A stretch of DNA of 64,000 bases from Armatimonadota bacterium. GTDB taxonomy: Bacteria > Armatimonadota > Hebobacteria > CAIYQO01. The translations under genes were made by a program, and so were the position numbers. Positions 191 to 28,215 of the stretch are shown piece by piece; the first letter of the stretch is position 1, and each line of letters starts with the position of its first letter. The DNA is taken from the NCBI GenBank assembly GCA_029553475.1, contig JAKPKV010000114.1:248001-312000 (forward strand), given 5' to 3'. Under the pieces are notes generated by a model. The model had not been told where the DNA came from. It searched no databases and was given only the letters and a program-made list of their open reading frames with translations.

Positions 191-368
191 TAAAAGAGAC
201 CCCCAACAAAAATTTACACGCCATCGGATGAATAGCTAGAGCTGGACACGACTTACCTTAACTGCAAAAGGGATTCATCTAGGCGTCGGAGAAACAATAG
301 CTATATCAGTTTCGGTATTTTTGCACAGTGCATTCTGTAGCATTTCTCCTAATTGGGGGAGCCGGCCC
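191..368. other. short intergenic gap before the Gabija-like pair
   Basis: No gene is visible here. The stretch contains a GGGGGA purine run at about 355-360, nine bases before the ATG at 369, and I use it to place the start of the nuclease gene. A longer reading from TTG 321 is possible, but its extra residues do not look like the family. Confidence 0.4.
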
Positions 369-2192
369 ATGCGTATCTGTCGCCTTGACATTAACGGCTT
401 TCGCGGAATCAAAGAAGGCTCGGTCACTTTCCCAGAGCACGCGCTTCTTCTTGGCCCCAATAATTGTGGAAAAACCACGGTGGCTGAGGCGTTGGCCTTA
501 CTGTTTGGTCGGGAACGCGCTGTGACCCGCCAGTTATCGGATTGGGATTTCTTCGGCGGTACTCCCAAGGCTGATACGCGCTTCACGCTTATTGGGACAG
601 TCACAGACTTCGGCGATGGAACGGTAACAGACCCAGGACAATTCCCCGATTGGTTTTGTGGTGAACGAGGCGCAACGCCTGTTTGGTTTCGTGAAGACAC
701 GGGTGAAGTTCTATACGCTCCTGATCCGCCTCTCGGAACAAAACTGGCGGCGCAGATTGCTTTGACAGGCCGTTATGATGAGGACGCCTGTGAGTTTGAG
801 ACGGTCCGATATTATTACCAGGGGCCTTGTGACCCTTTTACCGATCCCCACTTCGCTGTTCCACTCTTACGGCAACGCGAGATGGGAGTATTCGTCCTTC
901 CATGTAACCGAGAATGGCAGGATGCCCTCTCTTTCAATTCATCAACGTTTCTTAAAGTACTACGGGAGTATGGCGCTGTTCCAGGGAAAAGCATTGACGA
1001 CTTAAAACAGGAGTTACGCTCTCCCGATGCCAAAATTGAAGACGCTACTCCGTTTACCGATATCATTCAGCTTGCAGAGCAAGAATTGCGTGGATTCTCA
1101 TTTCTTGCCCAAACCGATAAACTTGCCTACCGGCCAACGCAGTTAGATTCCCTCGCGGTTATGCGCAGCTTGGTCCCACACATTATGGGCGATGTGATTG
1201 AGTATCTGCCTGTGGCCCGGCAGGGGTCTGGGTTGATTTCACTGCAGACCTTCCTACTCCTCCTTGCCTTTGCTGACTATAATCGGAGGAAAGGCCGCAA
1301 TTTCGTCTTTATCGCTGAAGAGCCTGAGTTGCATCTCCATCCATCACTTCATCGTCGGCTCGCAACGCGCATCCGTGGCCTGAGCACGCAGTCAATCATT
1401 ACGACCCATTCGCCCAATATCGCAGCCGGGTATCAGCCACATTAAGTAATCTACCTGCAAAACCGCGAGGGAACGCTTATTTCTACGGTGCTGAAGCGGG
1501 AAGCTCCACAGACCATTCACCCTAATTCAATCCAAAAACTCTATACGACGAAGCGCCAGGCGCTCTACGATACGCTGATGAGCACATCAGTTGTATTGCC
1601 GGAAGGCGAATATGACCATGATTGGCTCTCTTTGCTACTACGCATTGCTGAAGCGGCTGCTGATCGGAACAATGCCGAGCAATTGAAGCCGTTTACTATT
1701 GTGCCAACGCAAAGTGCCATCATTGAAACATATGTCGAGTTGGTACGTCTACGACCCGATATAATCCCGCTGGTTGATGGCGATTCGCCTGGAAAAGGTT
1801 ACCTTACAACTCTGCAGAACCAGGCGAACCCTCCGCGTGCCATCATTACGTATGGCGATGACGCGGCTATCGAATGCCTTGCGGCATGGGTACTTGAACC
1901 CGCTCTAGCAAGCCCTGGCTCATGTCTCGCAAAGCTTCTCCCTGATCCTTCCACCCATACATTAAAAGGACTTCAGGATGCTTTAATTGGGATCAAGAAA
2001 GATCGTGGGCAACATGAGGAGTTGGCTTGGGAAGCACTTGAGAATCCAACATGCGCCGAACGGATTGTCGCTCTATTCAGTGATATCGCAGCAATTACTA
2101 TTGGAGAACCACCAGCGCGATTACCCTGGGTTACCGATACGACGAATGGACCTGCCGTTGTTTACGCTGCAAGCTTCATTACGCGAGTATAG
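369..2192 (+). pseudogene. gajA: Gabija GajA-like OLD-family nuclease, interrupted by an in-frame stop
   Basis: One reading frame of about 608 codons is broken only by TAA at 1443-1445 (codon ~359). The first part is an ABC-type ATPase: it starts MRICRLDINGFRGI, has Walker A GPNNCGKT at residues 29-36, the EEPELHLHP signature near 316 and the THSPN switch near 345. The second part, readable from just after the stop, is a TOPRIM nuclease with LPEGEYD near 411 and VDGDSPGKGY near 470. ATPase plus TOPRIM followed by a UvrD-like helicase is the Gabija layout, and the combined length is close to GajA. Flanking residues QPH-stop-VIYLQN join smoothly, so this looks like one point mutation rather than two genes. 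A GTG at 1488 could start a separate C-terminal product, but it lies inside the conserved fold. The gene is probably inactive unless the stop is read through or is a sequencing error. Confidence 0.8.
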
Positions 2193-2195
2193 CAG

Positions 2196-3581
2196 ATGGG
2201 ACAGATCATTCTCATTGAAGGACAAGCTGGAACAGGGAAAACGACGCGGCTCTTAGCGAAAGCCAAGGAACTCGGTCCGATTCTTGTGCAGCGCGAGTAC
2301 CAACGTGTGCTGGCAATGTCGTTTATGCATGGGGCGCGACGACGATTGGTGGATAAATTCCATGCCGACTGCCCGCTTCTCCCCACGCATATTACGACGA
2401 TAGATGCCTTTGCGTTGGATATTGTGAACAGGTGGCGGCTGATTTTAGGGTTTTCGCTCCCCGTGAGCATTGGCACGTCTCGCAATTCTGATGATAGCTT
2501 GTATAGCACGCTGTTCGGCTTTTCGGATGTGTTAGGAAAAGCAGCAGAGCTATTAGCCAGCTCATCAGTTGGGCGTGTCATTGGGGATACATTCCCCCTT
2601 GTTGTCATTGACGAATTCCAAGATTGCGACGAAGGCCATATTGCACTTATCGAACAGCTTGCCAAGTATTCAACCCTCGTGCTGGCTGCAGATAGATTCC
2701 AATATTTGAAAGCAGAAGGCGACTCGTGTCCAGCACTTGAGTGGATCGAACGCATTGCGCAGTCACATGACGTAGCATATGAAGTGTTGACGACGATTCA
2801 TCGGACGGATCAGGCGGATATCTTGCAGGCAGCAGCAAATTTACGGTCTAATTGCCAGATAGATGGAGCTATTCAACCTTTGATCTGTCCCAATGCCGGA
2901 CCAGCAGCTTGGAAAATCCTCGAACGTCTGGTCTTGGGGTGGTCTGGTATACGTTGGACAGGAAGTTGTGCATTACTTACTGTCAAGCGGTCAGATCCGC
3001 TGCTTATCAGAACATGCCAATCGCTTGATAAACAAGCGTCGGATAGAAAATATGCCCGATATTTTACGGATAGGAGAGCTGGAATTGCTTGGCATCAAGA
3101 AGTTGATGAATCTGCAGAGTGCGAGCAAGCCTCTTCAGAGCTATGCGTTCTAGATCATGGTATAGCTGTTGAGACCTTGAACGATTTATTGATTGAATCT
3201 CTGTCTCCCACTGCACGCCAAGTACGGGACAGATTGCTACGGTTTGCACAGTTAAAGAGACTCTCTCATCTCCCAGAAGCGTTAGCAACCGGACATATCA
3301 GGCAAGCCGTTCATTCAGCGCGTGCGTTTGGTCGCCAGCAAGGGAAACGTATCATCACAACGGTACATGGGGCGAAAAATCGGGAGTTTGAGCATGTCAT
3401 TATTCTCTGGACGAAGTCTGTACCGCCCAGTCGCGATCTCCAGCGTAAGCTATTATACAATGCGATCACACGTGCGAAGAAAGATTGCCTGCTCCTCGTC
3501 ATTGGCAATGACCGTGACGTGGCCAGTAGTCCGGTGCTTAAATTATTAGGAGAGCCTTTACCTGTATTCCCAGCACGATAA
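2196..3581 (+). CDS. gajB: UvrD-like SF1 helicase, Gabija GajB-like
   Basis: A 461-aa superfamily 1 helicase. It shows Walker A EGQAGTGKTT at residues 8-17, Walker B VVIDEFQDC near 138, a LAADRFQYL motif III region, TTIHRT motif IV-like, TTVHGAKNREFEHVII motif V and YNAITRAKKD motif VI. The ATG begins three bases after the stop of the nuclease gene, so the two are translationally coupled. In Gabija, GajB senses free DNA ends and nucleotides and works with the GajA nuclease in anti-phage defence; that role is taken from the family. The helicase frame is intact although its partner is broken, so the nonsense mutation may be recent. It converges with the minus-strand operon that ends at 3624. 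Confidence 0.8.
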   Translation: MGQIILIEGQAGTGKTTRLLAKAKELGPILVQREYQRVLAMSFMHGARRRLVDKFHADCPLLPTHITTIDAFALDIVNRWRLILGFSLPVSIGTSRNSDDSLYSTLFGFSDVLGKAAELLASSSVGRVIGDTFPLVVIDEFQDCDEGHIALIEQLAKYSTLVLAADRFQYLKAEGDSCPALEWIERIAQSHDVAYEVLTTIHRTDQADILQAAANLRSNCQIDGAIQPLICPNAGPAAWKILERLVLGWSGIRWTGSCALLTVKRSDPLLIRTCQSLDKQASDRKYARYFTDRRAGIAWHQEVDESAECEQASSELCVLDHGIAVETLNDLLIESLSPTARQVRDRLLRFAQLKRLSHLPEALATGHIRQAVHSARAFGRQQGKRIITTVHGAKNREFEHVIILWTKSVPPSRDLQRKLLYNAITRAKKDCLLLVIGNDRDVASSPVLKLLGEPLPVFPAR

Positions 3582-3623: not shown

Positions 3624-4802
3624 TTATGCGCTCCCTCCGCCATGCATACTCTGGCGTGGTCTGACTTGTACTGGCACGATACTCTCCCGCTCGTCATCTA
3701 TCACAAGGGTCTGGCCTGGGCCGTTCAACAGTTTGATCCTTCCACTCAGATCGCCGGAAAGGTAGTCCTGGCTTAAGGCATCAATGGCCTTATAGTCATC
3801 CCTGGATGTGATCCGATGGACAACCCTAATCCCGCACTGGGTCAATATCTCGGCATCAATGGCCGCTGGCTGCTGGCTGGCAACGATGAGCGATAATCCT
3901 GGTTGGCGCCCTTCCTTTGCCCAGCGAATCAGCACTTCCTTTGATAACGTACTCATACCGCTTGGACAGAAGTTATGCGCCTCATCAATCGCGAACCAGA
4001 CTTTGCGCATATCAGAAGAAAGGCCAAGGGCTTCCCGACGGCGTGCGACCGTGCGAACTTGAAAGATGAAGTTGGCGAGTACTGCCACAACCAGGTTCCG
4101 TAAACCGTAGCGACTTTGGGTCAGCACACTAAGATCAAGAATATTAATCGCGTCAGGCTGGAGAATTTCCCATATTTCGCGGTAGCGCGTTTCCTCGAAT
4201 ATCTGCCAATCATGCGCCATGTCAATTTTGCGTAATAACGCTTCTTTTGTCCGCTCATGCGTCTGAATCTTGCCGATTTCAACCGCAATGTCGTCCAGTA
4301 AGAAGTCGTGCCGGAGCTTCTTCCAACAGTTGCGAACTGCCTTGAACATGGCCGCACCCATCAACTCGTTGATATCCAAATCGAAGAGATCGCACCACAT
4401 CTCAGGGGGAAGATCAGAAGGGTTCAAGCGAAGTCCCTGGATATGGATACCGCGCCGTTCCATCTCAAAGAGAATGTCTTCGCCCCCATACCGTTCAATA
4501 GGATCACCTGGCACCATAACGTTGACACGATAGCCGCGCGGCTCTCGGTCATAATCCCACAAACGCTCTGTCTCTCGGTACGAGGTATTCGCCTGGGCCA
4601 TTGCCCAATATATCCCCTGTGGGTCAGCCAGGAGCACGATATCCTCGCCGATATCGGCAAGCTCCTCGATGAGGACGCCCAGGGTATAAGACTTGCCCGT
4701 CCCAGTCTTCCCACAAATTAAAATGCGCTGTGACTTTTCACAGGCGATGCTAAACGGATCGCCGGTTTCCATATCTTTACCGATAGCGAGACCCTGATTC
4801 AT
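3624..4802 (-). CDS. HerA/DUF87-like ATPase, last gene of the defence operon
   Basis: A 392-aa hexameric-translocase type ATPase. Walker A GKTGTGKS is at residues 31-38, Walker B is WFAIDEAHNF around 270, and a QPGLSLIVASQQP sensor stretch follows, typical of HerA and bacterial DUF87 proteins. HerA-type enzymes pump along double-stranded DNA, and relatives occur in Dnd/Dpt restriction modules (DndH/DptH) and with nucleases. No nuclease domain is fused here. An AGAGG site sits upstream of the ATG. It starts 15 bases after the PglZ-like gene and ends the nine-gene operon. I infer that it supplies a DNA translocation or restriction step. Confidence 0.8.
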   Translation of the reverse strand: MNQGLAIGKDMETGDPFSIACEKSQRILICGKTGTGKSYTLGVLIEELADIGEDIVLLADPQGIYWAMAQANTSYRETERLWDYDREPRGYRVNVMVPGDPIERYGGEDILFEMERRGIHIQGLRLNPSDLPPEMWCDLFDLDINELMGAAMFKAVRNCWKKLRHDFLLDDIAVEIGKIQTHERTKEALLRKIDMAHDWQIFEETRYREIWEILQPDAINILDLSVLTQSRYGLRNLVVAVLANFIFQVRTVARRREALGLSSDMRKVWFAIDEAHNFCPSGMSTLSKEVLIRWAKEGRQPGLSLIVASQQPAAIDAEILTQCGIRVVHRITSRDDYKAIDALSQDYLSGDLSGRIKLLNGPGQTLVIDDERESIVPVQVRPRQSMHGGGSA

Positions 4803-8900: not shown

Positions 8901-10024
8901 AGAATTTCCTGTTCTAAGCAGTCAGTTATAAAGTCAATCGGCTGGTATGGCGAGTGCGTATCATTATAATGATGAATAATTCGATGGAATGCAGAGATCA
9001 CAGAGCGTGGCCCGTATCCCAGGTCCTTCCGTGTAGAGGATGTGACTTGTCCAATCGCCTGCAGCGCTGCTGGCGCGACAATCTGGTCGGGCTGGCTTTC
9101 TAAGCCGAACAACTGCATATAGCGAGACCAGAGTGTGGCTGCAAACTCATCTTTGTAAAGATCATAAAGGCGGGGCAGGCATTGCCGGCACTCCAGGCGG
9201 GCCGGGAGAGACTGCTGTTGTGCTTGCGCCTGCGAGTAGACCTGTTCAGGGATTGAGAAGAAGACGCCATAATTCCCCTGTTGTCGGTAGAGTCCGTCAG
9301 CCAACTCGAACATGATATAGAAGATCTGACTCATACCGATGGCGCGCGCAGCTACTTCCGGCTCGTCAAGCATCACTAGCAGTCCTGCAAAGCCCGCCTG
9401 CTGAATGATCTCTGTCACCTCAGCACAATATGTAAGATAGCGTTCTGGCGTTAAGCTATTCGAGACCAGCCCGCCAGCTTGTTCGGTACGGATATACATC
9501 GCATAGATGTCATCGGCATTACCACCGCTCTGTTCAGCGACCTTATTAGCAATCTCGCGCAGCCCTTGGCCACGGCAACTCTCAAAGAGCCTTTTCGCTT
9601 GTGCCGCAAGTTGCGGGTTTGACTGCATCAGGCAGAAATCAACCCATGCGGCAGTGCCGGCAAGAATGTCATCCAGCGATTGCCAGGAAAATGGCGGAAC
9701 CGCCAGAATACTGCGCGCACGGCTCTGTTCCCACACATGCACTTGAAAGCTCGTTTTGCCTTGCCCGTTGTCGCCGATCACCGCGCCGACGAAGGCTCCC
9801 TGGTTCTGACCGCTGACCCATTTGAAGATCGTATCTACATACTTCTCGGTTGCTGCAAGTTGGATGTAGGTCTTGGCGTGAGTCAGATAGACCGCTTCAA
9901 CATCCCTGGGAGTTCTCTGCAGCGACGAGACAGGGAACGTCGAGATAATCGGCTTCATACCGAGGATGTCTTGAAGGTCGCTCAGTTGAAACTGCTGGGG
10001 AACCGCAACGCTCTCAGGAACCAT
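5936..10024 (-). CDS. 1362-aa P-loop ATPase, BrxC/PglY-like
   Basis: Very large ATPase. From the chosen start (MVPESVAVPQQ) Walker A GDNGQGKTS falls near residues 84-92 and Walker B LLVMLDEPEV near 235. The middle is a large unrecognised region. The last ~450 residues are rich in Glu, Leu, Lys and Gln and look coiled-coil. I chose ATG 10024 over 10069 because GAGAGGAG lies eight bases ahead of it; it overlaps the upstream gene by 11 bases. BREX systems always carry a ~1200-aa ATPase (BrxC/PglY) next to PglZ, and in BREX type 3 a small BrxF ATPase precedes it, exactly the order seen here. Assignment rests on size, P-loop and context; I cannot confirm the DUF family from the sequence alone. Confidence 0.65.
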   Translation of the reverse strand: MVPESVAVPQQFQLSDLQDILGMKPIISTFPVSSLQRTPRDVEAVYLTHAKTYIQLAATEKYVDTIFKWVSGQNQGAFVGAVIGDNGQGKTSFQVHVWEQSRARSILAVPPFSWQSLDDILAGTAAWVDFCLMQSNPQLAAQAKRLFESCRGQGLREIANKVAEQSGGNADDIYAMYIRTEQAGGLVSNSLTPERYLTYCAEVTEIIQQAGFAGLLVMLDEPEVAARAIGMSQIFYIMFELADGLYRQQGNYGVFFSIPEQVYSQAQAQQQSLPARLECRQCLPRLYDLYKDEFAATLWSRYMQLFGLESQPDQIVAPAALQAIGQVTSSTRKDLGYGPRSVISAFHRIIHHYNDTHSPYQPIDFITDCLEQEILVTPDYRSKVGDILQSPEVTDATRDRFLLLSAFPNGLTFQLMDALGIKEEMLTLARNSRGVIEHRPPLYVRLIALIPGDGGVTDDDLAFYLRGIKDEYALHAGTFKESCLAFIDYVIPLLIKKRSGGQLTDFEYEGADWVALQDMGDTRVRYVRGAFQRGDYPERRYLIAVGPDTVETRQLRKCMNRRDTDAPDIIIHFALRWNVEASTDHVPFDCSAGSPSEKRPGFIRIVMNLVGDPVQHEGLESILDPSVLTPMGILFLMRKMAALQLPTAVTGQWKAIQDPLLRQIVTRFFADQTFQDKVGEALAEPIHDITAAIIGRIALFLLKKRFPEYVTLIRTPQWKQKVQDYINVLAHAEVPVVCKRGGQTWEVPGQKAASVFGISVMNLTGGGFDGYESLLIIRSMGRDKPLLIEFKLHPLEQAIRDKIQEPGDSEKITVNGKEVTWWIDVKDIMDLFLTSGYTAEELLLIFEIGKARGTFDIAKHNGSRILFCLPINPEEMRERLLERWNALKEEINTLSAFVGFEPSVKLEELLAEIRQVADENAYEALNHRISLAHAHNSDQLSSIVANYRMQLGGLSDRITRTQTALAQSGRDAVSLDRDISGQSKWCSDLNTYIVTNLRRMKTALRSTATELQGTVEAASTKLAQLPIGTQDRIAAISGVADQIKQLGASIGDLEGDSRAFDSSRKLLGNWIQLLRSSDQLSSDILKLKADPDHAAKADELYKRLIVIWGDISDHLMYQNIAGLGAYQQFKKQLDELNQEREDYWKNLHARFKEAKEAILGILRAFGIEDRLDAGFDQEDVAGSYTRLYEKGAQAVQGLLVETLRDLSKQSLELRYARDILKRVSADQADELVAGLDDIRDTLSTTLASVNSDWIIALVGSATKEADIEEFKTAVFEARRLTKETNDLIRQAVAGAGDDLGETAQTVFHQVEQTEGDLNMKQVVLALLNTRESADHVLDECLEAMAELFRSGKVDITIRKGRR

Positions 10025-10523
10025 AATACGCTCCTCTCTGGATGGCCTCTTCCCGTAAGATTGCGCCAAGGTCAGTACCTGTTGGCGCAGTCTGGAAGGC
10101 CGAAATAATATGGTTTTCGGTTAAGTTCCGCACGAACTGGTTCAGGTCACGCTCAGTTAAGGCAAGTTCAATCTTGGGCATCGGGTCTGAAGGAGGACGA
10201 CGGCTAAGGAGAATAATGCGTGGCAAATCTTTCAATAGCGCTTCATTATGGAGCATCCGTGTATATTCAACCCCATCCAAAACCACATTCTTTGCGCCGG
10301 CGGGGGCGTCTGCCAGGGTATTCACATAGCAATACTCCTGCTCTGCAGCAAGCAGTCGCCCGATAAACGTTTTGCCAACGCCCGGCATACCACTAAGACA
10401 GATGAACTGCGCGGTCGCCCACTTGGAGCACAATGCCTGGTAGACGGCGCGTTGCGCCTCTGTCAGCCACTCGGAAGTGGCCTGGGCTTTGATCGCGTTC
10501 AGCCATGTGATGTATAGGCTCAT
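10014..10523 (-). CDS. small P-loop ATPase, BrxF-like
   Basis: A 169-aa single-domain P-loop protein with Walker A GMPGVGKT at residues 45-52 and the IILLSRRPPSD stretch near 105 as the only further ATPase-like landmark. Size and position directly upstream of a giant BrxC-like ATPase match BrxF of type 3 BREX. The ATG overlaps the previous stop as ATGA, and its own stop overlaps the ATPase start, so it is stitched tightly into the operon. BrxF has no established biochemical role; I infer that it is an accessory ATPase for the neighbouring large protein. It could also be a generic AAA loader. Confidence 0.55.
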   Translation of the reverse strand: MSLYITWLNAIKAQATSEWLTEAQRAVYQALCSKWATAQFICLSGMPGVGKTFIGRLLAAEQEYCYVNTLADAPAGAKNVVLDGVEYTRMLHNEALLKDLPRIILLSRRPPSDPMPKIELALTERDLNQFVRNLTENHIISAFQTAPTGTDLGAILREEAIQRGAYYGS

Positions 10524-11356
10524 AGGTCTTCTACCGTAAATGGACGTTTGAGAGTGAAAGCTGTTCCAGCTAGAGTATCACGTTTACTGATAATATGACT
10601 TGCGATCTGCGTCGCAAGCAGCAAGTTATCATACGAGCACTGCGGGTCAACTAAAAATATACTCCTAATTTGATCGGCAATCTCCTCTGACAGTATGATT
10701 GGATCACCATACCTAATACATGTGCTTGTATATAGATCGTCAAGCGCAAGTAAAGAAAGCTCGTAGTGTTCAATAGATCGTGGAACTAATTGGTGCTGTG
10801 CAAAAGCCGAAGGTGATAACGCCTTAAGCCAAGTACATACAGCACCAACTGCCGTATGATTAAAACGTGCCCCAACCTTTGCGGAAAAATCTAACTCTGG
10901 GAATTCCATTGCCATAAATGACTGAATCATCTGTGCGATATGCTGCTTATCCCCAATACTCTTCATGCTCCAGATTAATTCGCAGCATTTTCGATAGCTC
11001 CACAGAGATTTTCTGCCACGAATCCTATAGCCAGTGTAATGGAGGTAATGCAATATATCATAAGCATAATACTCGTCATAACTAGCGATAGATTGGACTT
11101 TCGAGCCAATGGAACTCAAAGTATAAAATGTCTTACTTGCATTTTTGTACTGCTCTGCTAGGCCTAAATCATACAGTCTTCGCGGCGAGTAGCTATGATC
11201 CTTCTGCATAGAGTAGCCATAGTCGCGAGTTAGTTCAAGCGCAATATCATCTGGTGTTTTCCCGATGGTTGGCGTAAGAATGCGCAATACATTCGCTACT
11301 TCCGTAGGTGATGCATTATCAACGTAAAAATGCTTGTCCTCTTTGGGATTTGACAT
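10520..11356 (-). CDS. unknown operon protein, possible winged-helix
   Basis: A 278-aa protein I do not recognise. The N-terminal third (ELTRDYGYS, then YSPRRLYDLGLAEQ, then FYTLSSIGSKVQ) reads like a winged-helix or DUF4007-type recognition module in which a strand-specific label is read. The rest is helical and Tyr-rich, with a DILHYLHYTGYR patch. A clear AAAGGAG site precedes the ATG. It lies between the SBD-like and BrxF-like genes and shares an ATGA overlap with the latter. Its codon use is noticeably more AT-rich than the 16 kb end of the operon. A role as DNA- or protein-recognition subunit is a guess. Confidence 0.5.
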   Translation of the reverse strand: MSNPKEDKHFYVDNASPTEVANVLRILTPTIGKTPDDIALELTRDYGYSMQKDHSYSPRRLYDLGLAEQYKNASKTFYTLSSIGSKVQSIASYDEYYAYDILHYLHYTGYRIRGRKSLWSYRKCCELIWSMKSIGDKQHIAQMIQSFMAMEFPELDFSAKVGARFNHTAVGAVCTWLKALSPSAFAQHQLVPRSIEHYELSLLALDDLYTSTCIRYGDPIILSEEIADQIRSIFLVDPQCSYDNLLLATQIASHIISKRDTLAGTAFTLKRPFTVEDL

Positions 11357-11373
11357 ATCACTACTCCTTTATT

Positions 11374-12117
11374 CTATACTGCCAGATTTCCACTACCTTT
11401 TGAATGACGTGAGTAACCTAGAAGATATGCGCGCCGCAGATATTCTGCATATACTTCATTATCTCGATTCTCATTACTTGCAATCGCAAGTATTAATTCA
11501 TCAACAAGTCTTTCAATTTGCGTTAAGGATTGCTGATATGCGGCATTCGCCTCATCAAGTTCGAGTAAGCTTGATATACTTGTATAATAACTATCACCAT
11601 CAATAATGACACTAGAAGGTCGAGCTTGATATGGGTTGTCCCATTTAAGTGCTTGCTGTAGCCGTTCCTGTTTATGATCCTCAAATTGAGAGATTATGAA
11701 ATCACGGATCGCTTCTCTCGAATCCCTGTTTATGAATAGACGAAATACATCTTCATCTAGGTATACATAATCTATACCTTCTATAATTCGCTTCTTACCA
11801 CCGCCAGAAGTTTTGAGCGATGCGTAATACTCCTCGTTTCCTGACTTAATTTTGTGCTTCCAAAATGATGCTGTTCTTAAATGAAAGAAAGGCGGAGCTG
11901 GTTGACACCAATCCCCTTCGTCAGCAATCAAAGAAAAATATAGCCGGAATCGTGTTATCAGCGAGTCACTAAAGTACATCTTATTGATGGCAATAAGACC
12001 CGTCTCTGCCATGTCGAGGACAGACAGCAACATCACAAGTTTGTGAGGCTTTAGTCTGTCACCAACTTTTGCTCTACGCAGAGTTTGTAGCTCAGACAGA
12101 AGATCAGGTAGGTCCAT
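11374..12117 (-). CDS. protein with N-terminal sulfur-binding-domain-like module, no HNH
   Basis: A 247-aa protein. Residues ~20-100 carry the pattern of the N-terminal domain found in many HNH restriction enzymes and in phosphorothioate-reading ScoMcrA-type proteins: KPHKLVMLLSVLD, a spaced Phe/Tyr segment, then PAPPFFHLRTASFWKHK. No His-Asn-His motif follows; the C-terminal half is helical (DEANAAYQQSLTQIERLVDE). It is encoded 12 bases after the DndC-like gene with an AAAGGAC ribosome site. The simplest reading is a sensor that recognises a modified or special DNA state without cutting, the nuclease being elsewhere in the complex. That is inference; only the domain resemblance and context are visible. 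Confidence 0.55.
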   Translation of the reverse strand: MDLPDLLSELQTLRRAKVGDRLKPHKLVMLLSVLDMAETGLIAINKMYFSDSLITRFRLYFSLIADEGDWCQPAPPFFHLRTASFWKHKIKSGNEEYYASLKTSGGGKKRIIEGIDYVYLDEDVFRLFINRDSREAIRDFIISQFEDHKQERLQQALKWDNPYQARPSSVIIDGDSYYTSISSLLELDEANAAYQQSLTQIERLVDELILAIASNENRDNEVYAEYLRRAYLLGYSRHSKGSGNLAV

Positions 12118-12129
12118 GCCCCGTCCTTT

Positions 12130-12918
12130 CTATAACGAGCAAATAAGGCACGCCTGGTCGTAACCATCATCAATCGAATCCCACATGGTCGTGGGTTTCG
12201 AGCAAATTCTCTCTGGTCTTGATTGGAACTCTTCAATAATCGCTTCCATCCGGTCTTCTTCCATCATCTCGGCAAGGCTCTCCCGCTCACACCAACAAAA
12301 TCGTTCTCCTGTCACGGGATCAACCTTCTCATACGCCATCGCTTTGTCGTATAACTTGCGATGATGCTGGAAAAGACCAATCCATTCAATCCTCCGTTGG
12401 AAGAAGCAGAAATAGCATCCAGAACGAGAACGCCATTTATAGTATTCTGGATAACCAAGCCCACTTTCGATTAAAATACTATTGACATCCTCCTTGGTAA
12501 TCCCATCCTCAATGAAAGGATACTTCGCTTGGAGATTCGGCCTATGGGAAACATATCCTTCACGATCTTCGTCAGCCCGAATTCCAATGTAGTTAATGAC
12601 GGGATCGCTTCCTACATATCGTTCAAACGGTCGAATCTTTAGCATTCGCGTACACCAGCGGGTTCTTGCATCTGGAAGAACGCCACGGTAGATGTGACGA
12701 AGGTAATCATCAAACGACTTGTCTGGTAGAAGTCTGATGATCTTCTTGCCAAGGAATGCTTCAAGCTTGTTTAGATACTCGTAGGTTTCAGGTAGCTCCT
12801 CGCCGGTATCACAAAAGACATATTCAACACTTTCGAGTCTTCCCCGCATATAGATTGCTAGGGCGGATGAATCCTTACCACCTGAAAGTGAAATAATATG
12901 TCGTACTGGTAATGGCAT
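12130..12918 (-). CDS. PAPS-reductase/DndC-like PP-loop enzyme (BrxP-like)
   Basis: A 262-aa PP-loop ATP pyrophosphatase. The SGGKDSS motif is at residues 11-17, followed by FCDTGEELPETYEY, typical of the PAPS-reductase/DndC family. Cysteines at RTRWCTRMLKI, SGCYFCFFQRR, FCWCER and the terminal CLICSL could bind an iron-sulfur cluster or zinc. DndC/SspD activates DNA (by adenylation or similar) for sulfur insertion, and BrxP is the PAPS-reductase-domain protein of type 4 BREX. Here it is fourth from the end of upstream ATPase genes but has no cysteine desulfurase, DndD or DndE beside it. Chemistry on DNA is therefore inferred. It starts two bases after the stop of the 1120-aa ATPase. Confidence 0.75.
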   Translation of the reverse strand: MPLPVRHIISLSGGKDSSALAIYMRGRLESVEYVFCDTGEELPETYEYLNKLEAFLGKKIIRLLPDKSFDDYLRHIYRGVLPDARTRWCTRMLKIRPFERYVGSDPVINYIGIRADEDREGYVSHRPNLQAKYPFIEDGITKEDVNSILIESGLGYPEYYKWRSRSGCYFCFFQRRIEWIGLFQHHRKLYDKAMAYEKVDPVTGERFCWCERESLAEMMEEDRMEAIIEEFQSRPERICSKPTTMWDSIDDGYDQACLICSL

Positions 12919-12920
12919 GG

Positions 12921-15900
12921 TTACTTTCGCTCCTCTGCAGTGCCTACATGATCCAATAGGGCAATTGCTTCATATAATGAAGCACGGACAATACGAACTT
13001 CACTGCCTGATCTATGCCCGGCGGATTCCAATACCCTGCGTGCAAGCCGTTTGCTTTCCTCAATCTCAGCCTGAGACATAGATTTCCATAGTTCAACTAA
13101 GCCAATACTATTCGATTGTATTGCCCTTCGGTAAAGCGTACCGATGGCTTTTGCATTGATAGGGTAACGCTCGGCATCAGTGTCAGTCCAATGCCGAGGA
13201 GGGTTGTTTGCAATTAACGCTAACACACTCTCAATAACAGCCTCATCGTCCCCTTCCATCGCAGCACGGTTTAGAAAAGGCAGCAAAGAACTATCTGCTG
13301 TTACTGTTAATAACTCGACAGCGGTATGCCTCAGTTTCTGCCATCCAGCCAATCCAGTCGGTTCCCCACATGCATCTAACAATATATCACGTGATCGGAT
13401 AAGGAGCTTGGGTAGTGCTTCTGCCAGTTCTTGTAAGGCAGAATTAAGCGCATTAAAGAAATTGGAGATCGTGCATTCGCTATCTTGAGTCTCGGATAGG
13501 GGAACCTTCAAGGCATTCGGCAAATCTATGAATAACAGTTGTTCTGGCGATTTCGCCCTCTCAACGGCCCGGCGCAAAGACTGGGCTTTGGTCGAGACGC
13601 GATGCGTTTTCCATGCATAAGGGGGTAATGCTTTTAGCCGACGTAATAACTCTCTTACTACAAGGGGCACTTCGGCGCGCAGTCCAAGGCCACGAGCAAT
13701 TCGTTGGAGCATCATCGCCCGAACACCTGTTACTCGGCATCCTGCAACCGTGAATAGGTCAGGCCGACGCATTAAAACCTCATAATCGGCAACTACTGTT
13801 TCGGTCAGGAATGCTCCTTCGCGGTATAGAGTCGCTTCATGGTCATGAACCTGCATAAATGCGCAAAACAGTATCGGCAATATCCCTTCAGTGAGACCGT
13901 AAGGCATTGCGCGCAACGTCTCGAACAGGTCTGCGACGGGTCGAGGTTTCGGCGGCTCCATAAATACAAAATCGGATATAGCCTTCCAACACTCCGCTAA
14001 TTCCTCATCATCTGCTGGATCAGGCGCGCAGAAAGACCATACGCCGGGCTGTATTTCACGATGTAATCCCGTCGCCTGGAGGATGCATTCATACATACTC
14101 CGCTCTGGCGGATAACCTTCAATCCCCAGGTTCTCCTGGCTGGCACACTTCAGCATCGCCTCGATTAGATTCCGCCGCCCAGCAGCGGCAGCCGAGGAAA
14201 ATACCTGCCGGTTGATGAGTTCATTGCGTAAGCGTGGCGAATAGGGATAACTCTCATCAGCCATCGTCGAAAGCTGACTTGAGAAATGGCGTTGCCCTTC
14301 CAAGGGCAGGATACTTCCACGATAGAACCAGGTCGCGCCCCCTGTAGATGGACTGAAAACGCGCTCCCATTCATTCCGAAATGCGGTCTGGGCTTCCAGT
14401 AGACGCAGCGCTAATTCGCGTCGGGCAGCTTCGTCGCCGGCTAATTCCGGCGTGGATTCCTTGACACGGGCTGCCGCCGCCACGTCAAGCGCGGCTTCGC
14501 GCATGATATCCGTTTCCATGCCAATAGCAACCAGGAGGTTTGCATCGCTTTGCAACCGCGCGAGCGCCTCAACCATCTGCGCTTCTTCATTCGTTGTCGC
14601 GAGACAGTAAAGCACGGTCAATGAACCGGAAGATTTTTCTGTCGCGCGCTCTAACTCTTCAGGAGCACAGGGGAGCATTTGGACGGTACGCAGCGTTCCC
14701 GTCTGATAGGAATGCCGGCGGGCGATTTGGCTGGCCTGCGGGCAGAGATTGGATGCAACGTGGAGCGTTGTTCCTGCCGGCAATCCGATACGCGCCGCTT
14801 CCAGCGCGCCAGCGACATCAATATCGCCGCCTTCCCACAAGCGGTACGTGCCGCGAAGCCGGCTTTTGACAATGACGGCACGTTGCTGTAGCTCATTCAG
14901 TGCTTCTGCTACATTCGGGTACTGGCCGTGAGCATCCGTGAGAGCAAGCTCCAGCACTTCTTCCGTCGGCGGCAATTTCGGGTCCCGCAATATTCCAAAC
15001 AGCCCAATGCACTTCAGGAGTTGCATGGCTTCAGGCGATATATTATGCGTTCGCTCGATCAACTCAATGGATTCGACCCACAGACGGCTGATACCCGACG
15101 TGCTCCATCCGCCAACAAGCACTTCCGCTGAATAATCAAAGAGCCGATCAACTGTGAGCAGTGGGAAGTCACCCTCCTCAAAGGAGGACTCTCGCAAAAA
15201 GGCTCCGAGTGCGTAAGGTTCATGACCGGCAAGAAAATTGAACAGGCTCCGATGACTTTGCCCGGTTCGCCGGAAAAGGGTTGGCAGGGCAATCAGCGTG
15301 ACTGGATGCAGGGGGTAGGCAGCATGGGCAACATCGGCAAAACGTTCCTTCAGCCCAACGGGAAGCGAAAGTTGCTCACTGCACTGGTTGACTAACGCCT
15401 CATATGCTTCTGGGTATACGATAGGCTCTCGCTGCTCAATCGCATACCCGATCAGGTCAACTTGTTCGGAATCCGATGGCGAGAATTGATGGGTTCTGAA
15501 CCGTTCACCAACCTTGGCCCATTCCGTTTGATTCGTCTTCCCCAGCTTGCGCGCATAAGCATCCGCGTTCTGATGGAGCACGCCCATGAAGATCAACGGC
15601 GTAGCGCCACTTCGCACGGCAACTTCGGCAATCTCTTGCAACACAAAGATATCTTCGGTATCGGGATGCAGTGCGGCATACTCTAACAGTTTGCCCATCT
15701 CATCCACGATCACCAGTAGGCCAGACGCTTCTTCCAGCCCTGCCTGCTCTGCTGCGAATTTATAGAGATCAGCGACTTGCCGTGAGGTTGGGGTTTGGGA
15801 AGCAAGGACTTCCGCCCATTCCGACGTGATCGCCTCAACCAAATGGATATAACCACCGCGCTTTAATGCGGAAACCAGGCCCTTGACCAGGGTCTTTGTC

Positions 15901-16283
15901 AGCGATTGCCGAGAGCCGACGATCAAGACGGGGATTAACGCACGACTCGGTTGCAGGAGTTTCGCAGCAAGCTCCGCATCCACTAATTCCAGATGATGGG
16001 CAGCGCCGTTACGTGGCTTTCGGGGATTCAGCAACCGAGCGGTATAAACGCACAGGGCGCTTTTCCCAGCGCCATACGGCCCGACCAGGGTAATGGCCCG
16101 TTCACTCTGCTGCTCATATGCGGAGGCGACCAACTGTAAAACAGCATAGGCACAGGGCGTTATATGGTAACCATTCCCTTGTGCGTCGTAGTAGTCACGC
16201 TCCAAGTGAACGGATCGCTGGAACCGTCCACGGATCGAGATGATATCGGCTAAAGATCGCGATTTAATGGCTGGCGTGCTCAT
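12921..16283 (-). CDS. 1120-aa ATP-binding protein of the DUF4007 neighbourhood
   Basis: Large ATPase with Walker A LVGPYGAGKSA at residues 66-76 and Walker B LLVIVDEMGKLLE near 189-201. After this comes a conserved AAA-like segment (GVLHQNADAYARKL, WAKVGERFRTHQF), then a long helical region with no recognisable nuclease or methylase motif. It overlaps the DUF4007 gene by 20 bases and is two bases from the DndC-like gene. Proteins of this size and layout occur beside DUF4007 and DndC-like genes in defence islands. It may use ATP to remodel a DNA-bound complex, in parallel with the second giant ATPase of the same operon. No family name can be given safely. Confidence 0.65.
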   Translation of the reverse strand: MSTPAIKSRSLADIISIRGRFQRSVHLERDYYDAQGNGYHITPCAYAVLQLVASAYEQQSERAITLVGPYGAGKSALCVYTARLLNPRKPRNGAAHHLELVDAELAAKLLQPSRALIPVLIVGSRQSLTKTLVKGLVSALKRGGYIHLVEAITSEWAEVLASQTPTSRQVADLYKFAAEQAGLEEASGLLVIVDEMGKLLEYAALHPDTEDIFVLQEIAEVAVRSGATPLIFMGVLHQNADAYARKLGKTNQTEWAKVGERFRTHQFSPSDSEQVDLIGYAIEQREPIVYPEAYEALVNQCSEQLSLPVGLKERFADVAHAAYPLHPVTLIALPTLFRRTGQSHRSLFNFLAGHEPYALGAFLRESSFEEGDFPLLTVDRLFDYSAEVLVGGWSTSGISRLWVESIELIERTHNISPEAMQLLKCIGLFGILRDPKLPPTEEVLELALTDAHGQYPNVAEALNELQQRAVIVKSRLRGTYRLWEGGDIDVAGALEAARIGLPAGTTLHVASNLCPQASQIARRHSYQTGTLRTVQMLPCAPEELERATEKSSGSLTVLYCLATTNEEAQMVEALARLQSDANLLVAIGMETDIMREAALDVAAAARVKESTPELAGDEAARRELALRLLEAQTAFRNEWERVFSPSTGGATWFYRGSILPLEGQRHFSSQLSTMADESYPYSPRLRNELINRQVFSSAAAAGRRNLIEAMLKCASQENLGIEGYPPERSMYECILQATGLHREIQPGVWSFCAPDPADDEELAECWKAISDFVFMEPPKPRPVADLFETLRAMPYGLTEGILPILFCAFMQVHDHEATLYREGAFLTETVVADYEVLMRRPDLFTVAGCRVTGVRAMMLQRIARGLGLRAEVPLVVRELLRRLKALPPYAWKTHRVSTKAQSLRRAVERAKSPEQLLFIDLPNALKVPLSETQDSECTISNFFNALNSALQELAEALPKLLIRSRDILLDACGEPTGLAGWQKLRHTAVELLTVTADSSLLPFLNRAAMEGDDEAVIESVLALIANNPPRHWTDTDAERYPINAKAIGTLYRRAIQSNSIGLVELWKSMSQAEIEESKRLARRVLESAGHRSGSEVRIVRASLYEAIALLDHVGTAEERK

Positions 16284-17217
16284 AATAGCTCTTCAAAAAT
16301 GCGAATGGCTCGATTGGTCCGGTATCATGACGAAGGACCTGGCGTACTAATGCGGTATCCTGAAAGCTGTATTTGCCTTCTGTCAGCGGCTCAATATCAT
16401 CAAGGTAGGAAAGGATGCTATCTTCATCCAGCTTGAAGACCATGCCCGGACTCCCTTCCGCATATGTCAGGTCCCACACGGAAAGTGCCGTTGAATCGCC
16501 TTGTCGCCACTGCCAGAAGCACAACATGGCATAGTAGAAGATATAGTTCGGAAGCGAAGGCTTCGGGCCAAGCTGAAACCGGAAGTGGCGTGCGTAGCAT
16601 GGTTCGATCAAGTGCAACTGCTGGAGCGGACAATCAATCTCGTCATCCGCTCCCGCTTTTCGCTCAGGCGTCACATAGGTATGGAGCAAGCAGTCAATGT
16701 CGCGCGCAATGGTTCCCCAACTCTTTGATTCTCGATACGATTCAGGGAGGGCGCTAATGACTGACTCCACCAAGGATTCCCGCGAGAATTCGTATTCCCG
16801 ATGCACGTTAAACGTCCAGACCCAGGAGTAGGCTTTCCCTGCTGGTGCGGCTAATCCCCAGTGCAACAGCCAAAGCGTGGCGATATCTTCAAGGTAGGGG
16901 TCCCAGCCTTCGTTATCTGGCCCACCGAATAACGCCTTACCTAATTTGCTCGGATATAGCTCACGGCCACGTGTGCCAGGCGCATCTTCGGCGACACCCG
17001 ACATGAGTAACCAGTGGCGGATACTCTGGACCATGTTCTTTCCAACGCCGAGTGTCACGAGAGCGTCGTCACGGGAAAAGAAGCTTGGACCGCCGACACT
17101 GATATCCTGCAGCGCATCCAGGCCCTTTTTCAGCCATCCTGCTCGGAATGCGAAAGTTTGATGCCCGGCGAATGATGGATTGGTTGGCAATAAGGTTGAG
17201 TGCCTCGGTATAGTCAT
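16264..17217 (-). CDS. DUF4007 protein, first gene of the defence operon
   Basis: A 317-aa protein with clear DUF4007 features: FAGHQTFAFRAGWLKKGLDAL at residues ~16-36, FFSRDDALVTLGVGKNMVQSI, then a WDPYLEDIATLWLLHWGL stretch. DUF4007 proteins are repeatedly found next to DndC/PAPS-reductase genes and are thought to bind DNA or link modification to restriction; no activity is established. It is the promoter-proximal gene. An AGAAGG site lies 12 bases before the ATG. The following ATPase starts inside its last codons. Confidence 0.85.
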   Translation of the reverse strand: MTIPRHSTLLPTNPSFAGHQTFAFRAGWLKKGLDALQDISVGGPSFFSRDDALVTLGVGKNMVQSIRHWLLMSGVAEDAPGTRGRELYPSKLGKALFGGPDNEGWDPYLEDIATLWLLHWGLAAPAGKAYSWVWTFNVHREYEFSRESLVESVISALPESYRESKSWGTIARDIDCLLHTYVTPERKAGADDEIDCPLQQLHLIEPCYARHFRFQLGPKPSLPNYIFYYAMLCFWQWRQGDSTALSVWDLTYAEGSPGMVFKLDEDSILSYLDDIEPLTEGKYSFQDTALVRQVLRHDTGPIEPFAFLKSYYEHASH

Positions 17218-17600
17218 GAACGGTCTGGACCTTCTGGAATGCCAATGGCAGGCTAGGGAACGACCTTCTCCCCTATCCTGATTCGCCGCTACTTACCCGA
17301 TACCTACCGTTGACCGAGAGAAAAATAGCACGTACCCGCCAATCCTTTCCAACCAGCTTCTTTCACTATCTTCTATTATGCCAGTGGCAGAGGGACAGAA
17401 TCTGTCCTCGCAAGGGAAGAAGTAGATTTTTGCATGGGTAGGCATTGCAGACGAGAACAGGGAAGGCAAGAATAAAAGGTCCGGCCCTCATTTTCGGAAG
17501 GCCGGACCTATTGCCGTAGATTCGCCACGGCGGTTCGTATTATTGATTAAGGCGGCTGTAGGGCAAGTCTGCCCGACAGCGGTTGGGAATTGCTGTTCCC
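17218..17600. other. intergenic region upstream of the defence operon
   Basis: A 380-base gap without a convincing gene. It must hold the promoter of the minus-strand operon; A+T-rich TATTTTT near 17326-17333 (minus) is the only weak -10-like candidate I see, with no good -35. The left half is otherwise featureless, and the right part contains the terminator hairpin of the preceding gene. Confidence 0.4.
17471..17509 (-). terminator. rho-independent terminator
   Basis: Perfect 10-bp stem AGGTCCGGCC/GGCCGGACCT (17477-17486 with 17500-17509) and a 13-base loop. On the minus strand the stem is followed by TTTTATT, the U-tract. It lies about 90 bases past the stop of the 134-aa gene at 17601-18005, so it should end that transcript and insulate the nine-gene operon. 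Confidence 0.8.
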
Positions 17601-18358: not shown

Positions 18359-19657
18359 CTAGGCAGCGTTTGCCCAGCGTTCAATGAGCCTACCGCTAGT
18401 GCCTGCTATTTTCACACCAGTCACTTTGCCATAATCGAGCAGTAGGTAAAGTGCCCGTGTAATGTCATGCTCTTTCCGGTTGCGCCCCAAGCCGTTGCTG
18501 ATGTCCGTCCGGGTGAGTCCTTCCGACGGAGCGTCTTTCAGCATCTGGTAGATTTCATCGGCAACAGGGTCTCCCAGCTTGTCGCCGAAAATATACCGTG
18601 CGGAATCTCCGCAGTATCGCCATACGGCAAGGGCAGCCTCCAGATGCACGCGCTTGATGTCGGGGGAACCGTCAGTGAGAGCATAGATCAGCGCCAATCG
18701 AATTACCTGGGCTTCTGCACGACTCGTCACGGCCCCGAACAGTCCAAGCTTCCCTTCAGATAGTTGTTGATACCCCGCGATCCATAAATCCCGTGCCTCC
18801 GCATCTCGCTTCACTTCCCGCATCTTCTGGGAAAATTTGACTGCTGCCTGGAGCCGCTTCACGATAGGCTGTAAGGCTGCATCAGGGATACATCCACCCT
18901 CCGGGAGAATGTTCGCCCGTTCGACAAAGACCCATAAAAAGCGGTTTGCGAACCCATTGCCGGCTTCTGTGCGGTTCAGATCACGCAGCAACTCGTCCTT
19001 CGTGCAATGCCCGATAATGGAAATGTGGGCATTTGTCGCTTGGGCGGGACTATTCTTCGAGAGAATCTGGAGATTGCCCGAATCCCACGCATTGCGGACG
19101 ACAGGAGAAAGGGTATTCCCTTCCCTTTCCATCACTTTCAGCATGGAGGCAAACTCGCCCTCCATGCAGAGAAGGCGCTTATCTTCGACACCGTGGTCTA
19201 CGATGACAGAACGATAACCCGTGATTTCCTTCTTCTCCTGGATCGGCTCCAGCTTTTCAATCAGGTCTCGGACCGCCCATACCAGGCCTTCTCCACTGGT
19301 CAAGCCTGACTTGATGCAGTTCTGCGACCAGGTTGCATCAATTTCCTTACACAGGCGTTTAACCTGCCCCCATGACGTACCTTTTCGTCCCTTCGACGTG
19401 CGACCAACTTGCACGACATAAATGTTGGTTGGATGAATGTCAGCCTCGGCCTGGATATAGGCGTTTCGCCCAATCAGGTTGCCAACGGCAGCAAGGGTTG
19501 TCGTGAGAATCGCCGCAGGGTCCGCTTTAGTCTGCGGAGTTACCAGGCGCGTAAAATCCCCGATAGGCCCGTGGAACGCTGCTGCGCCTAACGAAGCTGG
19601 CTTTTCAGCATAACCGCTTGGTAACCTAATTGGCGTTTCGGTGAGCGGGCGTGTCAC
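18359..19657 (-). CDS. DUF3987-family replication protein (probably cut off by an amber codon)
   Basis: A 432-aa frame from GTG 19657. The sequence fits the DUF3987 family of phage and plasmid replication proteins: LVTPQTKADPAAILTTTLAA, VQVGRTSKGRKGTSW, LCMEGEFASMLKVMER, then a C-terminal winged helix (GLTRTDISNGLGRNRKEHD). A usual Walker A is replaced by GRTSKGRKGTS, as common in this family. The same frame stays open upstream to TAG 19817-19819 and encodes AYTVTEAIASLKQAYSREAR, which belongs with the protein, so the GTG start without a ribosome site may be artificial. The protein is thus probably the remainder of a longer gene. It is the last gene of a minus-strand replication cluster. Confidence 0.65.
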   Translation of the reverse strand: MTRPLTETPIRLPSGYAEKPASLGAAAFHGPIGDFTRLVTPQTKADPAAILTTTLAAVGNLIGRNAYIQAEADIHPTNIYVVQVGRTSKGRKGTSWGQVKRLCKEIDATWSQNCIKSGLTSGEGLVWAVRDLIEKLEPIQEKKEITGYRSVIVDHGVEDKRLLCMEGEFASMLKVMEREGNTLSPVVRNAWDSGNLQILSKNSPAQATNAHISIIGHCTKDELLRDLNRTEAGNGFANRFLWVFVERANILPEGGCIPDAALQPIVKRLQAAVKFSQKMREVKRDAEARDLWIAGYQQLSEGKLGLFGAVTSRAEAQVIRLALIYALTDGSPDIKRVHLEAALAVWRYCGDSARYIFGDKLGDPVADEIYQMLKDAPSEGLTRTDISNGLGRNRKEHDITRALYLLLDYGKVTGVKIAGTSGRLIERWANAA

Positions 19658-19816
19658 GACCGGCTCAGTAAGGTCTGGCGTGCCAGCCTCAGGTTCTGTA
19701 GGCGACAGCGATGCTCCACCATAGGTGATCTCCGCGTATTGCAGCGGTTCGCGAGCCTCCCTTGAATAGGCCTGCTTGAGCGAAGCTATAGCTTCAGTAA
19801 CGGTATATGCCTCAAG

Positions 19817-20002
19817 CTATCCCTTTGCATTTCGGTCGCTGACTCCCTGCTGATACCGAAGCATAATCTGCTCGGCTATTGGGTAGGGAACCCCATTATC
19901 GCGCAATTGGCACGAGAGCCAAAGACCCGTATCGTTGCGACATCCAGGTGACCGTGCTAGTGCCTCCTGAAGTAATCCTGTTGGCGCTTCAATCTTATTC
20001 AT
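19817..20002 (-). CDS. small helper domain usually fused to PrimPol/DUF3987
   Basis: A 61-aa frame, MNKIEAPTGLLQEALA then GCRNDTGLWLSCQLRDNG. The RND...CQLRDNG motif is commonly found inside primase-polymerase replication proteins. AGGAGG stands ten bases before the ATG, so it can start on its own. It ends at TAG 19817-19819, after which the frame stays open into the DUF3987 gene. Either an amber mutation split one gene or this element encodes the module as separate small proteins. It lies 19 bases after the PrimPol stop, in the same frame. Confidence 0.5.
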   Translation of the reverse strand: MNKIEAPTGLLQEALARSPGCRNDTGLWLSCQLRDNGVPYPIAEQIMLRYQQGVSDRNAKG

Positions 20003-20020
20003 TACGACGATTCCTCCTGG

Positions 20021-20536
20021 TTACTTACGAATGAGCTGCTGTAGTGCGTTAGGCAGCAGGTTGAAATCATATAGGTCTGGCTCGCGGAGCCAAGTATACG
20101 GCCCGTCAGTATTACGGCCACAAAAAACCGCATACCCGCCATCACCACGGATATCCAGACCAGGAAACAAGCGTGCCAGACCGGGTGTTGATTTCCCGTT
20201 GAGCGTTTTAACCGCATAGCCCGGATGTGCAAAATATACGTGAGCACCACCGCTCCCGGTCATCAAGTGCGGCTCTAAACCTAACTCGGTCAGCAAATGC
20301 AGGCCCTTGAATCCGTCAAAATCCAGGATAACGATCCCGCTGATATCGCCCGTCACGACCGCCCAGGATGGTGGATGATACGTGCCATGCCAACGTGTCA
20401 CGAGCGCTAAATCAGGTCGCGCGCGTTGCCATTCAGTCCATGATGGCAGGCATGGCTTCTTTTTGATTGTAGTAGGGAAAATTGACCAGAAAAGCTCAAG
20501 GGCTTTGCGGGCTGTCATTATCACGGCTGTACTCAT
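20021..20536 (-). CDS. bifunctional primase/polymerase (PrimPol) N-terminal domain protein
   Basis: A 171-aa protein from ATG 20536. PrimPol (AEP superfamily) motifs are visible: AVVTGDISGIVILDFDG with the catalytic Asp pair, TGSGGAHVYFAHPG with the Ser-x-His-like motif II and a GLDIRGDGGYAVFCGR segment. It would start replication of the element by making primers and copying DNA. Family members are usually fused to helper or helicase domains; here it stops after the catalytic domain with TAA and the helper piece follows separately. A GGTGG-like site precedes the ATG; a longer frame from 20608 would overlap the preceding gene and lacks a better site. Confidence 0.75.
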   Translation of the reverse strand: MSTAVIMTARKALELFWSIFPTTIKKKPCLPSWTEWQRARPDLALVTRWHGTYHPPSWAVVTGDISGIVILDFDGFKGLHLLTELGLEPHLMTGSGGAHVYFAHPGYAVKTLNGKSTPGLARLFPGLDIRGDGGYAVFCGRNTDGPYTWLREPDLYDFNLLPNALQQLIRK

Positions 20537-20591
20537 AAAAACCACCCAGAAATACACTTCCCGGCGGAGGAACCGGGAAGCGTTCAGTAGA

Positions 20592-20993
20592 TTAGAACGG
20601 GTCGTCACCCTTTGTTGGCAGCACTGCGGGCTGTTGGGCGCACGGCTTTACGTCTTCGACTTTGGGGAATTGCCCACCGTCTGTTCCTTCTTTCACGCCC
20701 AACACCAGCGTCACAACGCTGCCGATGAGCGTATCAGTGTCCAGGCGCTCACCCAGGCCAATTTCACGGCCCAAGCACGCGCCAGCCCAGCGGATGAATT
20801 TACCTTTCAGGTTCGCCGACGTAGAAGTCCACGCTTTGACTGACCGTCCGGTAAGCTCTCCGGCATTCAGTAGCTCGAAATCCCAGCGGAACTGCGGGCC
20901 ATAGATGCCGTTTTCCAGGTAAATCGCCGTTACTCTGGCGAGATACTCGCCTGCCTGAAGCAGGCTATACGCTAACGTGGTAATAACTGCCAT
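20592..20993 (-). CDS. small phage-like replication protein, possibly ssDNA-binding
   Basis: A 133-aa protein starting at ATG 20993 (AAAGGAG five bases upstream), MAVITTLAYSLLQAGEY. It resembles small phage proteins encoded beside primases (DUF669-like), with a beta-rich core (YGPQFRWDFELLNAG, AWTSTSANLKGKFIRWAGACLG) and an acidic, flexible GDDPF tail like those of ssDNA-binding proteins. The GDDPF end is reminiscent of SSB tips that recruit partners. No direct proof of an OB fold. It precedes the primase by 55 bases in the same transcript. Confidence 0.5.
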   Translation of the reverse strand: MAVITTLAYSLLQAGEYLARVTAIYLENGIYGPQFRWDFELLNAGELTGRSVKAWTSTSANLKGKFIRWAGACLGREIGLGERLDTDTLIGSVVTLVLGVKEGTDGGQFPKVEDVKPCAQQPAVLPTKGDDPF

Positions 20994-28122: not shown

Positions 28123-28215
28123 GTATTGGCAGCACAAACACTTGCGCGGGAACGCCAGTTTGTGTAAAATATGTATAGATATTGGTCGCATTGCTGTACG
28201 GGAGAGCACGGTTCC

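Follow-up and report, generated by a model that had tools for sequence, protein, structure and literature searches.

A nine-gene operon, in which an SspBCD set for phosphorothioate (PT) modification is followed by a stand-alone sulfur-binding domain (SBD) protein and by a five-gene module of the BREX-Related Capture (BRC) type, was found in the 64,000-nt stretch of Armatimonadota DNA analysed here (the window; numbers with L and G denote our loci and genomes). As judged by its sequence and its predicted structure, the SBD protein is most likely a PT reader that would tell the effector module which DNA is self. We lean towards the view that the nine genes together form a PT-based restriction-modification system, whose SBD acts as a self-recognition subunit and, when bound to PT, would restrain the BRC-type machine. 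The fold and the pocket of the SBD, the identity of SspBCD, the operon itself and the BRC homology of its ATPase, PglZ and HerA were all computed here.

All nine genes lie on the minus strand in the order sspB, sspC, sspD, SBD, 278-aa protein, 169-aa P-loop protein, BrxC-like ATPase, PglZ and HerA (Table 1). They are joined by overlaps (20 nt between sspC and sspB) or by gaps of at most 17 nt, with the exception of a longer overlap at the large ATPase, the reading frame of which was listed from a TTG start that may not be the true one, the latter possibly lying downstream. The terminator-like hairpin upstream of sspB fits an independent nine-gene operon, which is suggestive only, the total of the hairpin scan (12 found) not being above that of shuffled sequences (14.1 expected).

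Table 1. Features of the nine-gene operon, with their positions in the window and the matches on which each assignment is based.
Feature	Position	Strand	Evidence
sspB, DUF4007 protein of the PT-modification set	16264..17217	-	Pfam DUF4007 1.8e-78; PADLOC SspB 2.6e-87; PDB SspB 6juf 1.8e-35
sspC, BrxC-like ATPase of the modification set	12921..16283	-	PADLOC SspC 7.5e-287; Walker A GPYGAGKS
sspD, PP-loop (PAPS-reductase-like), predicted DNA sulfur transfer	12130..12918	-	PADLOC SspD 1.1e-103
Stand-alone SBD protein	11374..12117	-	phmmer to 8h0l 1.5e-21; AF2, Foldseek and VIA fold comparison
278-aa protein, in the slot of the BRC BrxA/DUF4007-like wHTH protein	10520..11356	-	BLAST 3e-7 to the same-position Haloplanus BRC protein
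169-aa P-loop protein (GMPGVGKT), in the slot of BRC active STAND / BREX BrxB	10014..10523	-	Walker A; position
Large BrxC/DUF6079-like ATPase, 1377 aa	5936..10069	-	Pfam BrxC_BrxD 6.5e-4; Walker A GDNGQGKT
Short PglZ-type metal-dependent enzyme, candidate nuclease effector, 373 aa	4818..5939	-	BLAST, profile-profile
HerA-type translocase ATPase	3624..4802	-	Pfam DUF87 4e-13
Terminator-like hairpin, 13 bp, upstream of sspB	17477..17509	-	Hairpin scan

Several other genes of the window deserve mention in their own right. A Gabija-like trio lies at 321-3581 on the plus strand, consisting of a GajA-like ATPase of 374 aa, which covers its model over the first part only, a GajB-like helicase and a 234-aa protein with no Pfam or PADLOC match. 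DUF3987 and Prim-Pol genes, possibly the remains of a mobile element, are found beside the operon (18359-20608), and two adjacent genes at 28171-30077 match the candidate defence models PDC-M30A and PDC-M30B/M41B. The gene of a large serine recombinase (23407-24990) extends over the end of the tmRNA gene (24925-25317). The 17 nt of 24922-24938 occur again on the same contig, about 29.7 kb further left (C186:243243); weak when taken alone (E 0.09 genome-wide), this repeat is possibly the att repeat of an integrated element.

The PP-loop enzyme had been called DndC-like in the first-pass annotation. Its SGGKDS loop and Cys groups were present as described (SGGKDS at residues 12-17, RWCT at 87-90, CYFC at 168-171 and CLIC at 257-260 of 262 aa), but the name had to be given up: by its family matches, the enzyme is SspD and not DndC. 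The PADLOC match to DndC was weak (E about 2e-4, against 1.1e-103 for SspD), the DndC equivalog TIGR03183 gave 12.4 bits against a cut-off of 290.4 bits, and a search of the whole genome returned no DndC. Retention of the residues needed for modification had been named as a point to check, and SspD does keep those conserved across its homologues, i.e., the PP-loop and C89 (85 of 86 homologues) and C168, C171, C257 and C260 (all 86). Together with SspB and SspC in the same operon it is, again by family matches, the SspBCD PT set, and the operon probably marks host DNA with sulfur. No cysteine desulfurase (SspA or IscS-like) is encoded inside the operon, and six class V aminotransferase matches above the Pfam cut-off elsewhere in the genome provide candidate desulfurases, which is consistent with the housekeeping desulfurases used by published systems (PMC12839542).

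Twelve nucleotides downstream of sspD stands the SBD gene, just as the first reading of the sequence had placed the two frames (11374-12117 and 12130-12918, minus strand, 247 and 262 aa). The SBD-family pattern claimed for its product is there as well (PHK at residues 24-26, PPFFHLR at 75-81 and FW at 85-86). On its own, the protein finds PDB 8h0l, a structure of the Hga SBD together with PT-DNA (phmmer E=1.5e-21), and a 16-row SBD profile finds the SBDs of ScoMcrA (E=1e-11) and SprMcrA (E=7e-8). In the AlphaFold2 model, made from the 16-row alignment, pLDDT exceeds 90 across most of residues 1-160, the approximate span of the SBD, and a helical C-terminal tail of low confidence follows (161-247). 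Foldseek ranked 8h0l first (TMt 0.89-0.90, E 4e-11), and VIA-align gave Z 22.2 with an rmsd of 1.6 over 148 residues for the same structure. The comparison with ScoMcrA-SBD (5zmo), put forward earlier as a check of the fold, likewise returned the SBD fold (Z 14.0).

Five residues hold the sulfur in ScoMcrA, namely H116, R117 (replaced by K in the majority of homologues), Y164, P165 and A168 (PMC6224610). According to the profile alignment, H116, R117 and P165 correspond to H25, K26 and P76 of our protein, while Y164 and A168 correspond to P75 and H79; the A168 position is H in SBD-Hga as well. Within the 16-row set, K26 and P76 never vary, and H25 is almost invariant. On the strength of sequence and model, the product of 11374-12117 is thus a genuine sulfur-binding domain, beyond SBD-like. 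Family-model searches, including Pfam, PADLOC and NCBIfam, gave no HNH or other nuclease family match, in agreement with its earlier description as nuclease-free, and the sole family match was a weak one (E=0.011, residues 6-128) to the PT-DNA-binding restriction enzyme model (PT-DNA_restrict). An identity as a PT-dependent type IV endonuclease of the ScoMcrA type was rejected, as these searches found no HNH domain in the chain. One might still imagine that the SBD recognises foreign DNA with PT as it enters and has it destroyed, given that the described SBD enzymes ScoMcrA and SprMcrA are PT-dependent type IV nucleases (PMC6224610). However, with a PT writer in the same operon the host itself would become the target, and together with the absent HNH domain this makes such a role highly improbable.

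The SBD is followed by five genes that correspond, one after another, to the module of the BRC systems described by Rakesh and Krishnan 2026 (PMC12839542), which likewise runs from a wHTH-like and a small P-loop protein to a BrxC-like ATPase, a short PglZ and HerA; the first of the five and the last three are homologous in sequence. Our comparison locus, on a Haloplanus plasmid (L110), contains the same five genes in the same order; a TGT gene precedes them, GNAT and QueF-like genes follow, and deazaguanine genes (QueC, QueE and QueD-like) lie near by. HerA is 48% identical to the Haloplanus HerA, and BLAST links the large ATPase to the Haloplanus BREX ATP-binding protein (1.2e-45), PglZ to the BRC protein (4e-27) and the 278-aa protein to its BRC counterpart (3e-7). 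The ATPase, PglZ and HerA are homologous to those of BRC. The 169-aa P-loop protein showed no significant BLAST homology to its Haloplanus counterpart; it has an intact Walker A motif, sub-threshold Pfam matches to AAA/nSTAND3 and the same position in G241 (see below) and Haloplanus. For the 278-aa protein, the DUF4007 profile gave E 0.025 and a single-sequence AF2 model reached a pLDDT of 38. Profile comparisons of these two small module genes with DUF4007 and BrxB were not significant, and the labels DUF4007 and STAND are accordingly putative.

As for PglZ, the motifs DG137, DHG287 and HGG356 are present, and a profile-profile comparison with BREX PglZ covers the DHG and HGG motifs (E=8e-6, prob 83%; NCBIfam BREX-4 PglZ, 0.033). 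Since nuclease activity is reported for type I BREX PglZ (PMC12205998), PglZ may by analogy be the nuclease of the module. The published BRC systems carry TGT/GNAT in a subset, whereas SspBCD and the SBD take that place in the window. Family-model searches found neither TGT nor GNAT among the operon proteins, and the BRC paper mentions neither PT nor an SBD for BRC.

The nine genes stand in this order in a second genome of the phylum, G241, so that 2 of 291 phylum genomes have the full system (a HerA match occurs in 4 of the 291). HerA is 75% identical between the two and the remaining genes about 33-54%. The HerA relatives at 45% (L018 and L019) were set aside, as their neighbours differ from the nine-gene system or the contig ends. 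A wider search for the module with HerA, covering two further phyla (392 and 396 genomes), gave no instance among the best four candidates per genome, and viral contigs gave none either. The flank of the system copy in G241 (L016, 1318-9776) contains a SAVED-domain effector gene and a HATPase protein.

SspBCD followed by an SBD and then a BREX core is seen in L030 and L032, with BrxL confirmed in both, and in the partial locus L031 (SspD scan); L021, L023 and L024 of the phylum are similarly arranged. The SBD of G054 in L024 (9929-10279) is only 116 aa, with a TGA inside the match, and may be truncated. Six SspBCD plus BREX-core loci have no SBD (L036, L042, L043, L053, L055 and Thermomicrobium roseum DSM 5159, L111), BrxL being present in L055 and T. 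roseum too, and the SBD is therefore optional; many SspBCD sets likewise come without any SBD gene.

The trees point to traffic between these loci. In the SspD tree, the window lies apart from G241 (96/96) and among BREX-type loci; the SspB tree places it with L021 and L022 (100/98) and leaves G241 outside; the SBD trees gave no resolution at the window/G241 node. The closest relatives of the window SBD, SspB, SspC and SspD come from BREX-type loci and not from G241, and the effector module is common to the window and G241. This combination suggests a block-wise exchange of writer and effector. Such exchange, like the other defence-like genes of the window, would also suit an accidental combination, in which an SspBCD-SBD cassette landed beside an independent BRC system and the two are not functionally coupled. 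Yet the nine genes are co-directional and tightly spaced, and their order recurs in G241 in spite of the low identity of all genes other than HerA, so that we consider mere chance very unlikely.

Elsewhere, the SBD keeps telling company. Among 17 SBD genes, taken from named loci that had been selected by SspD only, 12 lie on the same strand and at most 1.25 kb downstream of sspD; if placement were uniform, the binomial P would be about 1e-13 (uncorrected for relatedness among loci). Its fusion partner is a DUF4007 protein in L021 and a protein matching NERD/kinase models in L022, and L084 has separate SBD and NERD-kinase genes. In L033, L058 and L061 the SBD forms the front part of a fusion with SspF, the SspF models beginning right after it, and L039, to go by its layout, resembles them. 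These SBD-SspF fusions sit in SspFGH-like loci, at the N-terminus of SspF-like ATPases. By its fusions to SspF and to the DUF4007 protein, the SBD is therefore physically tied to effector-side or DNA-binding proteins in these loci. In L058, a desulfurase lies between SspD and the fusion. In two Poribacteria loci (L068, 951-1844; L069, 1778-2683), the gene directly after sspD encodes an SBD-HNH-like protein of ~300 aa; such a pairing of a writer with a predicted PT-dependent nuclease looks self-destructive unless regulated.

Could the SBD instead belong to the writer, guiding, limiting or maintaining SspBCD modification via PT sites with no contact to the effector? Its position directly after sspD in both nine-gene loci and several others would agree with this, as would the kinship of the window SBD and SspBCD with BREX-type loci. 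The effector-side fusions speak against it, however, and the many SspBCD sets without an SBD gene indicate that the SBD is not needed for modification; we find a writer part unlikely. More tentatively, and as a reading that is quite conceivable, we propose that the SBD is an exchangeable PT-reading adaptor linking SspBCD to unrelated effectors, and thereby a common self-recognition subunit of a large share of the PT systems for which no reader or partner was known. The effectors so linked would be BRC with HerA, the BREX core with BrxL, SspFGH via SspF, and NERD-kinase proteins. In the open-access literature (most subscription journals and bioRxiv lie outside this scope), we found neither a stand-alone SBD with SspBCD nor an SBD-SspF fusion.

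The first-pass annotation had supposed that a reader beside its writer senses the writer's product, or its absence, and passes the signal to the ATPase/PglZ/HerA part. Sequence, fold and context uphold the presence of a nuclease-free SBD, a PT-type writer and such a module in one operon; the writer turned out to be of the SspBCD type instead of DndC, and the SBD to be optional, as it is absent from six related loci. In the scheme that we favour, SspBCD and a desulfurase encoded elsewhere would place the sulfur mark on host DNA, and the stand-alone SBD would bind it, probably docking on the DNA-binding or ATPase proteins of the module. The SBD on PT sites would then restrain the BRC-type machine, leaving DNA without PT for HerA to engage and for PglZ to cut. 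What we infer here is the synthesis and the binding of PT, the formation of a complex and the sign of the signal, and signalling from the SBD to the effector is suggested by operon order and by the fusions in relatives (SBD-DUF4007 and SBD-SspF).

With respect to the sign of that signal, the literature offers both precedents. SspFGH attacks and damages non-PT DNA and is toxic to PT-less cells (PMC8092258), whereas PT stimulates SspE, which does no harm in its absence (PMC9646914; PMC8092258), and Pbe likewise requires PT for activity (PMC6459918). Following the latter, the PT-bound SBD on host DNA might arm the ATPase/PglZ/HerA module, which would then move off self DNA and attack unmarked DNA. 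This is possible but rather unlikely in our estimation: the SspE and Pbe effectors are unrelated to the window module, and SspFGH, which bears a HerA/FtsK-type protein and whose loci harbour the SBD-SspF fusions, acts in the opposite way. Because of that shared protein type and these fusions, we have, by analogy, a modest preference for restraint by PT over activation. Counting against the favoured scheme as a whole, PT can be sensed in another way in the six SspBCD plus BREX-core loci without an SBD, the DUF4007 and STAND labels of two module genes are putative, and the exact nine-gene system was seen in two genomes only.

Other known systems resemble the operon in part. SspABCD-SspE and SspABCD-SspFGH (PMC9646914, PMC8092258) share with it the SspBCD writer and a PT-based partner module, and SspFGH also the FtsK/HerA-like protein, but the effector of the window is BRC-type and its PT reader a separate SBD, not the SspE cavity; PADLOC matched no operon protein to SspE, SspF, SspG or SspH. 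Type 4 BREX and the SspBCD plus BREX-core loci (L030, L032 and T. roseum L111) likewise run from SspBCD, with or without an SBD, to DUF4007, BrxB-like, BrxC-like and PglZ proteins; unlike the window, those three loci have BrxL and a PglZ of about 730 aa, and neither Pfam nor PADLOC found BrxL among the operon proteins. ScoMcrA, SprMcrA and SBD-Hga share the SBD fold and sulfur-pocket residues, whereas the window SBD has no HNH or SRA domain and is encoded with its own writer. The window HerA matches the mad8 model of MADS (1e-23, PADLOC); MADS was rejected, as PADLOC found no methylase, specificity subunit or further mad match in the operon. PbeABCD (PMC6459918) is also a PT-linked multi-gene defence, but with a Dnd-type writer and with PLD-helicase and SMC-like components, and PADLOC found no Pbe match in the operon.

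Of 2,678 sspBCD modules counted in the SspFGH study, about 84% lacked both SspE and SspFGH in their vicinity, and the possibility of other restriction partners was raised there (PMC8092258). The window locus and its relatives supply candidates for such partners, namely the BRC module and the BREX core, together with a candidate PT reader that can be checked by single residues. The finding suggests, moreover, that different DNA marks can be paired with the BRC machine, and how some sulfur-marking systems without a known partner may tell self from foreign DNA.
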